NCBI RefSeq assembly: GCF_004924335.1
Contig: NZ_CP024633.1
Coordinates: forward strand, 3,472,001-3,536,000
Length of the DNA stretch: 64,000 nt
Reading direction: 5' to 3'
DNA from: Mycobacteroides salmoniphilum
Lineage (GTDB): Bacteria > Actinomycetota > Actinomycetes > Mycobacteriales > Mycobacteriaceae
The translations under genes were made by a program, and so were the position numbers. Numbering within the stretch: the first letter of the stretch is position 1; each line of letters begins with the position of its first letter. The notes below the pieces were generated by a model. It had not been told where the DNA came from and searched no databases. It saw nothing but the letters and a program-made list of their open reading frames with translations. This document shows positions 40,409-43,213 of this stretch, piece by piece.

Positions 40409-40414
40409 TAGGCT
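40409..40414 (+). promoter_or_regulatory. Predicted -10 element of the metC-metX leader transcript
   Basis: TAGGCT (TAnnnT) places the start of transcription at about 40421, right at the first base of the P1 stem of the riboswitch. The 203-bp region 40219-40421 otherwise holds only the icd leader and promoter area. Confidence 0.5.
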
Positions 40415-40421
40415 TCTCAGT

Positions 40422-40558
40422 GGTCATGAGCACCAGCGTCAAGCCCCGGCTCGCTGGTCGGCAACCCTCCAACCGCGGTGGGGTGCCCCGGGTGATGACC
40501 AGGTTGAGTAGCCGACTGGGTTATGAAAGGACAGTCGGCCACACGGCAAGCGCGGGTC
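40422..40558 (+). ncRNA. SAM-IV riboswitch
   Basis: Near-verbatim match to the mycobacterial SAM-IV aptamer as remembered. P1 is formed by GGTCAT (40422-40427) and ATGACC (40495-40500). The core has CCAGCGTCAAGCCCCGGCT and GGCAACCCTCCAACCGCGG. CCGCG (40473-40477) can form the pseudoknot with CGCGG (40551-40555). A further stem GCCGACTG/CAGTCGGC (40511-40518, 40532-40539) closes a 13-nt loop. It binds S-adenosylmethionine and should lower metC-metX expression when SAM is plentiful. Confidence 0.92.
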
Positions 40559-40591
40559 CGATGGCGGGCCCCGAGAAGACAGGTTGGCCCG

Positions 40592-40663
40592 ATGAATTAT
40601 TCGTCACCCGGGGGTGAATCCCTGCATTCCTGTTGTCGCTGTTGTCGCTGTCGCATGCCCTAA
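40592..40663 (+). CDS. Poly-cysteine leader peptide upstream of metC
   Basis: A 23-codon ORF reading MNYSSPGGESLHS, then CCRCCRCR, then MP and stop: five Cys codons in eight, all TGT. It lies between the SAM-IV riboswitch and metC. Poly-Cys short ORFs are known in mycobacteria as cysteine-responsive attenuators of sulfur genes, in which ribosome stalling at Cys codons changes downstream expression. A hairpin CGGGCC/GGCCCG (40565-40570, 40586-40591) ends right at the ATG. Expression and attenuation here are inferred. Confidence 0.75.
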   Translation: MNYSSPGGESLHSCCRCCRCRMP

Positions 40664-40700
40664 ACCGCCAGCCCCGCACCGACCACCCAGGAGGTTCTCC

Positions 40701-42029
40701 ATGACCGATATCGATCCCACCGCCCAGTGGGCATTTGAGACCAAGCAGATCCACGCGGGCCAGTCCCCCGATGCGGCAACCAACGCCCGCGCTCTGCCGA
40801 TCTACCAGACCACGTCCTACGTCTTCAACGACACCGCACACGCGGCGGCGCTGTTCGGTCTGTCCGAAGAGGGCAACATCTACACGCGCATCGGCAACCC
40901 GACCCAGGATGTCGTGGAGCAGCGCATCGCCACCCTCGAAGGCGGAGTGGCGGCGCTACTGCTGGCTTCCGGGCAGGCGGCCGCGACGTTGGCCATCCTG
41001 AACATCGCGCAAGCCGGCGACAACATCGTGTCCAGCCCGCGCCTGTACGGCGGCACCTACAACCTGCTGCACTACACGTTGCCGCGCCTGGGCGTATCGA
41101 CCACCTTCGTCGACGATCCCGACGATCTCGAGTCCTGGCGCCGCGCCATCACCCCGCAGACCAAGGCGCTCTTCGCCGAGTCGATCTCCAACCCGCAGAA
41201 CGACATTCTCGATATTCCCGGCATTTCGGAGATCGCACACGCGGCAGGCATCCCCCTCATCGTCGACAACACCGTCGCCACTCCGTATTTGATTCAGCCG
41301 CTGGCGCACGGCGCCGACATCGTGGTGCACTCGGCTACCAAATACCTTGGTGGCCATGGCAATGCGATCGGCGGCGTGATCATCGACGGTGGCACCTTCG
41401 ATTGGACGCAGGGACGCCACCCCGGATTCACCACGCCCGACCCCAGCTACCACGGCGTGGTGTTCGCCGACCTGGGTGCACCCGCTTACGCACTCAAGGC
41501 GCGCGTGCAGCTGCTGCGCGATCTGGGCCCCGCCATCTCGCCGTTCAACGCGTTCCTCATCGCTCAGGGACTGGAGACGTTGAGCCTGCGCGTGCAACGC
41601 CATGTAGAAAATGCGGAACGCGTCGCTCATCACCTCATCTCCCAGCCGGGGGTCACCCACGTCAACTACGCCGGGCTGCCTACCTCACCTTGGCACGAAC
41701 GCGCAAAAGCGCTGGCCCCCAAGGGTGCCGGTGCCGTGCTCGCCTTCGAGCTGGACGGCGGAGCCGAGGCGGCGACGACCTTCATCGATGCGCTGACCTT
41801 ACACAGCCAGGTCGCCAACATCGGTGACGTGCGATCTCTCGTGATCCACCCCGCGACGACGACGCACGCACAACTCTCGTCCGCCGAACAGGTGGCCTCC
41901 GGCGTGACGCCGGGACTGGTCCGTTTGTCGGTCGGCATCGAGGGCATCGACGACATCCTGGCCGATTTGGACACCGGATTCGCCGCGGTGCGGCGACTCA
42001 AACAGCCCGCGGCGGTGGCATCATCGTGA
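40701..42029 (+). CDS. metC: O-acetylhomoserine sulfhydrylase (MetC/MetY type)
   Basis: A 442-residue PLP enzyme that makes homocysteine from O-acetylhomoserine and sulfide. [11 protein letters not shown] and [15 protein letters not shown] are typical of the Cys/Met PLP family, and [11 protein letters not shown] carries the PLP lysine. The ATG at 40701 is preferred because AGGAGG (40689-40694) precedes it; an in-frame GTG at 40614 would run through the leader. GGAG can pair with CTCC directly before the ATG (40690-40693, 40697-40700), possibly hiding the ribosome site. The stop overlaps metX as GTGA. Confidence 0.95.
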
Positions 42030-43213
42030 CCTTAACCGACGATCTTCGCGCCAGCGGCTCCTCCGCCGACCAGCGACCTCCCTCGCCCCGCATCACCCTC
42101 CCCCAGGGTGATGAGATCGCCTATGCACCAATAGGTTCGATCACACTGGAGAGCGGCGCTGTGATCGACGACGTGACCGTCGCGGTACAGAGCTGGGGAA
42201 AGCTCTCACCGCGCCGCGATAACGTCGTCTTCGTCTGCCACGCGCTCACCGCCGACTCACACGTGGTCGGGGCCGCCGGTCCCGACCACATCACCGGCGG
42301 CTGGTGGGAAGGAATCATCGGGCCGGGTGCAGCGATCGACACCGACCAATGGTGTGCGGTCGCCACCAACGTACTGGGCGGCTGCCGAGGCACAACCGGC
42401 CCGACTTCCCTTGACGCAGAGGGAAAGCCCTGGGGCTCACGGTTCCCCGAGGTGTCGGTGCGCGATCAGGTGAATGCCGACATCGCCGCACTCGCACAAT
42501 TCGGCATCACCGAGGTCGCCGCCGTCGTCGGCGGTTCGATGGGCGGTGCGCGCGCATTGGAATGGGCTGTCATGCGACCGGATTCGGTGCGCGCGGCGCT
42601 GGTGCTGGCGGTCGGTGCACGCGCCACCGGCGATCAGATCGGCACCCAGAACACGCAGATCGCCGCCATCCGGGCGGACCCGGACTGGCAGGGCGGCGAC
42701 TACTACGGCAGCGGACGCGGCCCCGAAAAGGGGCTGAACCTCGCCCGTCGCATCGCACATCTGACCTACCGCGGCGAGGTCGAGCTGGACACCCGATTCG
42801 GCAACGATCCCCAGGTCGGCCCGGACGGGCCCGAAGATCCGTGGGCCGGTGGCCGATACGCGGTGCAGAGCTACCTCGAGCATCAGGGCAATAAGTTCGT
42901 TCGGCGCTTCGATGCCGGCAGCTACGCCATCCTGACCGAGGCACTCAACCGGCACGACGTCGGCCGGAGCCGTGGCGGTGTGGAGAAGGCGCTACGCGGC
43001 TGCCCTGTCCCCGTCGTCGTCGGCGGCATCACGTCCGACCGGCTATACCCGCTACGGCTGCAGGAGGAATTAGCGGACCTGCTGCCCGGTTGTACCGGCT
43101 TGCGGGTGGTCGAATCGGTGCACGGCCACGATGCGTTCCTCATCGAGTTCGACGCGGTGAGCGAGCTGGTGCGGGAAACACTCGCCCTGGCCAAGTCAAC
43201 ACAGGCTTCGTAA
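42026..43213 (+). CDS. metX: Homoserine O-acetyltransferase
   Basis: A 395-residue alpha/beta-hydrolase-type acetyltransferase that makes O-acetylhomoserine, the substrate of the preceding enzyme. [13 protein letters not shown] has the nucleophilic Ser near residue 171, RFDAGSY and [10 protein letters not shown] supply further family motifs and the catalytic His. GTG start at 42026 overlaps metC. The pair forms the methionine branch, probably both under the leader at 40422-40700. Confidence 0.95.

Follow-up and report, generated by a model that had tools for sequence, protein, structure and literature searches.

A SAM-IV riboswitch stacked with a conserved cysteine-codon upstream ORF before metC in Mycobacteroides salmoniphilum: a candidate two-input leader

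Upstream of metC-metX in Mycobacteroides salmoniphilum, a SAM-IV riboswitch aptamer is followed by a short upstream ORF (uORF) with a run of Cys codons, and this stacked element, located in a 64,000-nt stretch of the genome (the window), is real and conserved, and the mechanism proposed for it is plausible. The parts, their order, their conservation and the enrichment of Cys codons were observed directly in the genomes compared (Table 1). From predicted folds we favour, with modest confidence, a two-input serial gate that would read SAM first and cysteine second, with metC translation as its output. A first-pass annotation of the window had interpreted the leader as two stacked sensors, for SAM and for cysteine; this two-sensor interpretation is supported and the order of the two elements holds, except that the riboswitch appears to act in front of the uORF start and not as an independent sensor beside it.

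Table 1. Positions of the leader elements and genes in the window
Feature	Position	Strand	Basis or remark
Predicted -10 element TAGGCT (TANNNT)	40409-40414	+	TA[GC]GCT conserved in clade
SAM-IV riboswitch aptamer	40422-40558	+	Rfam RF00634
P3-loop CCGCGG	40473-40478	+	Presumed pseudoknot partner of 40551-40555, by complementarity
Hairpin 1 GGGUCCG-AUGG-CGGGCCC, proposed anti-sequestor	40554-40571	+	Folding energy, conservation
Hairpin 2 CGGGCC/GGCCCG, proposed sequestor	40565-40570 / 40586-40591	+	Ends at uORF ATG; excludes hairpin 1
AGGT, candidate uORF ribosome site	40581-40584	+	7 nt 5' of ATG, in loop of hairpin 2
Cys-rich uORF MNYSSPGGESLHSCCRCCRCRMP	40592-40663	+	ORF; frame and Cys tract conserved in clade
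UCCUG at first Cys codon	40628-40632	+	Predicted pairing with CAGGA 40688-40692 of metC ribosome site
Cys codon tract, five TGT in CCRCCRC	40631-40651	+	Sequence; conserved in clade
metC ribosome site CAGGAGG	40688-40694	+	Sequence
metC, bifunctional O-acetylhomoserine/O-acetylserine sulfhydrylase by family name	40701-42029	+	NF005872, 823.2 bits (cut-off 703)
metX, homoserine O-acetyltransferase	42026-43213	+	NF047917, 590.1 bits (cut-off 475)

The aptamer, already proposed at this position by the first-pass annotation, matched the whole RF00634 model (positions 1-116) at 107.4 bits (gathering score 38, E 8.2e-19). SAM-IV riboswitches have a pseudoknot between the P3 loop and the 3' end, and the P3-loop CCGCGG of the window is complementary, by sequence only, to CGCGGG at the aptamer 3' end (40551-40556); we take 40473-40478 and about 40551-40556 to be the two pseudoknot strands. 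A sigma-70 consensus scan of the window leader returned no promoter. The hexamer TA[GC]GCT lies 7 nt 5' of P1 in all 11 genomes of the window's clade (15 records, four being second copies), and so a transcript start near 40420-40422, close to P1 as proposed at first pass, is plausible from the sequence. Upstream of the leader, a monomeric isocitrate dehydrogenase gene is encoded on the opposite strand. The window genome comprises 4.78 Mb in one contig, and the closest named records in the metC search were Mycobacterium sp. D16Q13 and D16R12, Mycobacteroides franklinii and M. chelonae. In M. tuberculosis, metC was predicted to be under a SAM riboswitch (PMC9232105). The window genome has a second SAM-IV aptamer (L058, G000:C1:414175-414319, 96.2 bits) close before a different gene, whose translation resembles, by eye, a PLP-dependent protein of the cysteine-desulfurase type; a SAM-IV element before a cysteine desulfurase gene has been reported for Streptomyces lividans.

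Behind the aptamer, about 170 nt past the predicted transcript start, the uORF begins at ATG 40592 and runs for 23 codons (MNYSSPGGESLHSCCRCCRCRMP*), with TGT Cys codons at 40631, 40634, 40640, 40643 and 40649. Its stop codon is separated by 37 nt, with no overlap, from the metC start (ATG 40701), this gap being mostly 30-100 nt in the other leaders examined; metC and metX overlap by 4 bases. The arrangement of a 23-codon ORF with five TGT codons followed by metC-metX, as first described, is thus confirmed by sequence and family matches. The putative uORF ribosome site AGGT is unchanged in 10 aligned clade leaders, and CAGGAG of the metC site is present in 10 clade leaders (the forward-direction ones). 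The bare motif TGYTGYNNNTGYTGY is common in the window genome, with 66 matches versus 48 for the reversed control pattern; motif rarity was therefore rejected as evidence, and the case was built on conservation instead.

When 396 genomes of the genus were searched by DNA similarity, at least 11, the window's included, matched from query base 1, in the aptamer 3' end; among the matches listed, the remaining ones begin only in or just 5' of metC. In this clade of 11 genomes (leaders L212-L215 come from the same genomes as G190, G169, G243 and G298 and were counted once), the ATG, the frame and the Cys tract are kept in 11/11, with 5-7 Cys codons per uORF and at least four in the tract, and the tract length differs by indels in multiples of three that leave the frame intact. 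Among five genomes of equal length, distinct codon changes relative to the window amounted to three synonymous and no non-synonymous ones in the Cys/Arg tract, versus one and four, respectively, in the rest of the uORF. The tract changes more in the other six: one Cys has become His in G050 and G298, and G220 and G243 have a Phe-rich insertion that splits the tract. These in-frame insertions, FRLFFAPAAHQH or FGLYFAPAAHQH in L071 (G220) and L072 (G243, the genome of L214, M. franklinii), produce two Cys clusters. The Cys tract, whose lack of conservation in relatives would have spoken against the first-pass reading, is thus kept in the clade, and Cys-cluster uORFs recur in the corresponding position behind metC SAM-IV aptamers in Mycobacterium, Rhodococcus and Aldersonia. 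Judged by this conservation and by the Cys-cluster counts given below, the window uORF is not a chance frame.

Beyond the clade, 195 of the 198 genomes sampled from the genus proved to have SAM-IV, and 204 of 216 distinct SAM-IV leaders were placed before metC; metC follows directly in 90 of these and lies at a greater distance in the other 114. Among the 114 longer leaders, 82 (59/78 dereplicated) contain a short ORF that has two or more Cys codons and begins 44-68 nt past the anchor, compared with 28-29% in shuffles, and in 18/114 such an ORF has five or more, compared with 0.4%; examples are MRPDMCHHC, MRASLRPLTRCCCR, MRTFPQPMCCRC, MCCCP and VMCARFAHSLLIVCRC. A wider test covered 245 distinct SAM-IV leaders (221 before metC, 24 before other genes) and counted as a Cys-cluster uORF any ATG/GTG ORF with two Cys within five codons that ends before metC, the metC starts being assigned by script. 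Of the 221 metC leaders, 136 had the longer, spaced layout, and 84 of these 136 carried a Cys-cluster uORF by this rule. After dereplication the count was 68/99, versus 5.3 +/- 2.2 in dinucleotide shuffles of the 99 (maximum 13, 200 runs) and 2/99 on the reverse strand. The loci came from several searches, with L062-L091 recruited by DNA similarity to a query spanning the uORF; the dereplicated count was 63/94 when the window's clade was removed and 54/82 when L062-L091 were removed as well. Direct leaders gave 0/85 (0/66 dereplicated), a nearly automatic figure and no control, because little room is left for an ORF before metC. No Cys cluster was found in 31 of the 99 spaced leaders, several of which have uORFs with one Cys or none. 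Among the 24 leaders of other genes, a Cys-cluster uORF occurred within 130 nt in 0/24 and within 200 nt in three (L056, L058, L249), a set in which L249 is a metC leader missed by the motif and L026, L052 and L182 probably are too.

Outside the genus, sixteen named non-mycobacterial metC loci were scanned, of which eight (seven Rhodococcus, one Aldersonia) have SAM-IV, and Met-Cys-Cys follows the aptamer in all eight, as MCCCRR (found in Aldersonia), MCCCTD... or MCCRLD..., in L272 and L269 inside a longer frame by the start rule. The other eight loci (Rhodococcus, Nocardia) showed neither SAM-IV above the cut-off nor a Cys-cluster ORF upstream of metC. To cover families outside the genus, sets of 19 and 28 genomes were hand-chosen among 165 with SAM-IV. 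In a genus of another family (f4 g9), leaders encode, among others, MSRRMCCCRS, VCCRMCCRS, VCARMCCRR, VRTMMCCCS, VSCRMCCRH and VFCRMFCCR; no such cluster was seen in L372, L375, L378, L387 and L388 of the same set. Leaders of the direct layout came from families f3 (three genomes: L362, L366, L367) and f16 (three genomes: L369-L371).

Several leaders depart from these layouts. In L360, L364 and L377, metC leaders with no detected SAM-IV, GTG-started Cys uORFs lie near -10-like hexamers (by eye), as if a leaderless poly-Cys attenuator stood in place of the riboswitch. Nested starts occur in L091, L163-L166, L196 and L206 (63 nt past the anchor), where an ORF opening with ATGGAGG or GTGGAGG occupies the riboswitch slot and its first codons resemble the ribosome site of an inner five-codon ORF (MCCCP, MCCRP, MCMCP or MCMCQ). 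L038, L039, L043, L044, L278 and L287 have VRSYR where L078, L106 and L209 have VRSCR, which looks as if the Cys sensor had decayed (TGY to TAC) with the spaced layout kept. For L028, L085, L101, L102, L104 and L122, the start assigned to metC was GTG, and its ribosome site resembles AGAAAG instead of AGGAGG. On a MetC tree of 113 proteins, the stacked state required 19 changes compared with a mean of about 30 in shuffles, and the starred branches force at least 10; this was a quick tree with many weak forks, for which 20 state labels were hand-corrected, L230 was left out, and L385 and L386 were scored Cys-positive despite failing the five-codon rule. Repeated changes of the stacked state are suggestive only.

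The strongest argument for SAM control of uORF entry, drawn from sequence comparison, lies in where the uORF starts. The metC start in the 90 direct leaders lies at a median of 55 nt past the anchor, and the Cys uORF start in 76 leaders at a median of 50 nt; both leader types share the helix GGGUCCG/CGGGCCC (hairpin 1). The uORF thus sits where the riboswitch acts in direct leaders. Each pair of hairpin 1 is kept in 34-35 of 35 uORF-type leaders and in 34/34 direct-type leaders, the latter being 34 of 58 dereplicated ones, with the 24 left out including many with longer loops. Hairpin 2, which was noted at first pass as a hairpin ending at the leader ATG, proved a good candidate for the switch helix within the clade, where it is present in all 11 leaders (10 with 6 bp, one with 5 bp), and by prediction it places the riboswitch platform over the uORF translation start. 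The calculated energies are -13.1 kcal/mol for hairpin 1, -6.4 when it is trimmed to 5 bp by the pseudoknot, and -10.9 for hairpin 2. If the pseudoknot takes 40554-40555, hairpin 1 would therefore drop to -6.4 and hairpin 2 would win; that SAM would stabilise this pseudoknot we infer from SAM-IV biology. Folding of the whole leader gave hairpin 1 and a paired metC ATG. The full 6-bp hairpin 2 occurs in 32/90 direct and 20/114 uORF-type leaders (0.04 and 0.02 when shuffled), that is, in a minority, so other leaders must conceal the start differently. No two-sided covariation was detected in the clade or in the uORF-type leaders; in direct-type leaders, 2 of 12 pairs covary on both sides, in the helix adjoining the ribosome site.

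Between the uORF and metC, the window geometry fits a translational attenuator in the predicted folds. When 40550-40740 was folded, the UCCUG/CAGGA pairs had probabilities of 0.82-0.95; this pairing disappeared when a ribosome mask was placed so that its A site held any one of the Cys codons, and persisted with the mask at the stop codon. Correspondingly, the unpaired fraction of 40690-40695 was 0.08 unmasked, 0.32-0.33 with the mask at any Cys codon and 0.08 with the mask at the stop. Across 55 dereplicated leaders, openness rose by more than 0.15 in seven and fell by as much in two, and the stop-codon mask raised it in six; in the clade members G050 and G220, the metC site starts at an openness of 0.41 and 0.33 and hardly changes. 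With 7/55 leaders gaining, ribosome-site release as a general model was rejected for the genus, and stalling may work otherwise there. The GGAG/CTCC pairing (40690-40693 / 40697-40700), proposed in the first-pass annotation to hide the metC site, came up as an alternative fold, at about 0.45-0.57 with the Cys region masked; the clade leaders compared have not conserved CTCC, so this pairing was rejected as the metC lock, for which UCCUG/CAGGA is the better candidate. The UGU codons can also pair with GACAGG of the uORF itself, so the Cys tract may regulate its own start. A search for an intrinsic terminator after the uORF found none that was convincing, the single weak match (40609-40624) lying inside the uORF with a mixed tail (CATTCCTGTT) and lacking a long U run.

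Translation of the uORF, SAM-driven helix exchange, stalling for cysteine and release of metC are steps that we infer, and they would combine as follows. The SAM-IV aptamer would switch translation off, acting first on the start of the Cys-codon uORF, metC not being controlled directly. At little SAM, hairpin 1 would occupy the shared CGGGCC strand and ribosomes would initiate the uORF; with SAM bound, the pseudoknot would take part of hairpin 1, CGGGCC would pair with GGCCCG, and the uORF start would be concealed. Ribosomes traversing the uORF would leave UCCUG free to pair with the metC ribosome site, keeping metC low, and those awaiting charged tRNA-Cys would cover UCCUG and release that site. 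The operon would then be fully on only if both SAM and cysteine are short, in keeping with an enzyme family whose name contains both O-acetylhomoserine and O-acetylserine. The broader proposition, which in our judgement could equally well hold or fail, is that such a serial gate, with SAM epistatic to cysteine, has a modular design of long standing within the order: metC leaders of related genera would have switched repeatedly among having only the riboswitch, only a leaderless-looking Cys uORF, the two in series, or neither of them.

The same two sensors could instead have a transcriptional output, a reading we consider unlikely though it accounts for several observations: Rho would stop transcription before metC whenever ribosomes do not translate the uORF (SAM bound) or have left it, and a stalled ribosome or uORF translation would block Rho. 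The M. tuberculosis Mbox works with Rho (PMC12810186), and for mycobacterial cys leader peptides a role of Rho was put forward as a weak prediction (PMC1262725). Such an output would also explain why ribosome-site release is not general, and agrees with the lack of a convincing intrinsic terminator in the leader and with a window spacer (40664-40685) of 13 C, 4 G and no T. However, C exceeds G in 63/63 spacers and likewise in 63/63 metC coding starts, so this composition is not specific, and the window has a predicted ribosome-site lock on its Cys codons.

If the cysteines were incidental, the uORF might serve as a translational-coupling or reinitiation device under SAM control, as in the M. 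tuberculosis ppe2 B12 riboswitch, which acts via a uORF mainly by termination-reinitiation (PMC11260477); some spaced-leader uORFs have one Cys or none, e.g. VRSYR. This is improbable given the stop-to-start gaps, which leave no overlap, and Cys clusters that lie far above shuffles and are constrained in the closest genomes. A still smaller probability attaches to the peptide itself being what the uORF is for, such as a micropeptide that binds metal or thiols and is produced when SAM is low: in our judgement CCRCCRC could bind metal, and under the M. tuberculosis Mbox there is a conserved uORF whose role is unclear (PMC12810186), yet length and sequence vary from MCCCP to 39 residues, many products have 5-10 residues, and the Cys codons are the recurring feature. 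That a chance open frame follows an ordinary SAM-IV switch acting directly on metC is hardly credible and was already disfavoured by the clade conservation and by the Cys-cluster counts relative to shuffles, even though the bare motif is common in the window genome and the direct-type leaders suggest that the switch can control metC alone.

If the preferred serial gate is true, the leader would be a natural device reading SAM and cysteine on one transcript, with a bearing on how mycobacteria balance methionine against cysteine supply. The variants in related genomes (direct, stacked, Cys uORF only) would offer ready comparisons for how riboswitches gain a second input. A SAM-IV annotation before metC also need not imply direct control of metC, given the number of leaders with the longer layout and a Cys-cluster uORF.

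Canestrari et al. 2020 (doi 10.1111/mmi.14498) reportedly described poly-Cys leaderless short ORFs before sulfur-metabolism operons in M. smegmatis, where attenuation is said to follow ribosome speed on the Cys codons, with stalling releasing the downstream ribosome site. The window shares with these a short ORF that precedes a sulfur-metabolism operon and has a run of Cys codons; its uORF, however, is not leaderless and lies deep in the predicted leader, behind a riboswitch and with its own weak ribosome site. The Salmonella mgtA leader likewise joins ion sensing, by a Mg-sensing region, to translation of the mgtL leader peptide in one 5' leader, with a different ligand and different codons. 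Compared with SAM-IV riboswitches at large (RF00634), the window aptamer is a full-model match located before metC, but the first start codon behind its platform is that of the uORF, whereas in direct leaders it is that of metC. A 2005 paper described Cys leader peptides before mycobacterial cys operons and reported no conserved RNA structures before methionine operons (PMC1262725); these peptides share with the window uORF the Cys-codon runs near the stop codon of a short ORF and differ in being located at cys operons. In M. tuberculosis, the Mbox and B12 riboswitches operate together with uORFs (PMC12810186, PMC11260477), and resemble the window leader in that the main gene is preceded by a uORF that the riboswitch controls or cooperates with, although the available parts of both papers describe no amino-acid sensing by these uORFs; unlike in the ppe2 coupling, the window uORF stop does not overlap the metC start. 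In Rhodobacterales, the uORFC-8-2 motif before cysS also has a uORF with tandem Cys codons and is expected to act by ribosome-mediated attenuation (PMC8632094); it differs in having an intrinsic terminator, in having no described riboswitch aptamer and in belonging to another phylum. A ribosome-profiling paper on M. abscessus, whose main text does not contain 'metC', reported that leaders of amino-acid operons have uORFs and that an Mbox is combined with a uORF at mgtE (PMC4974804). No report of a SAM-IV aptamer stacked with a Cys uORF was found in the literature searched, insofar as the sources were available. Poly-Cys leaders and riboswitch-controlled uORFs are thus each known from such systems, and their combination before metC appears, within that literature, to be new.
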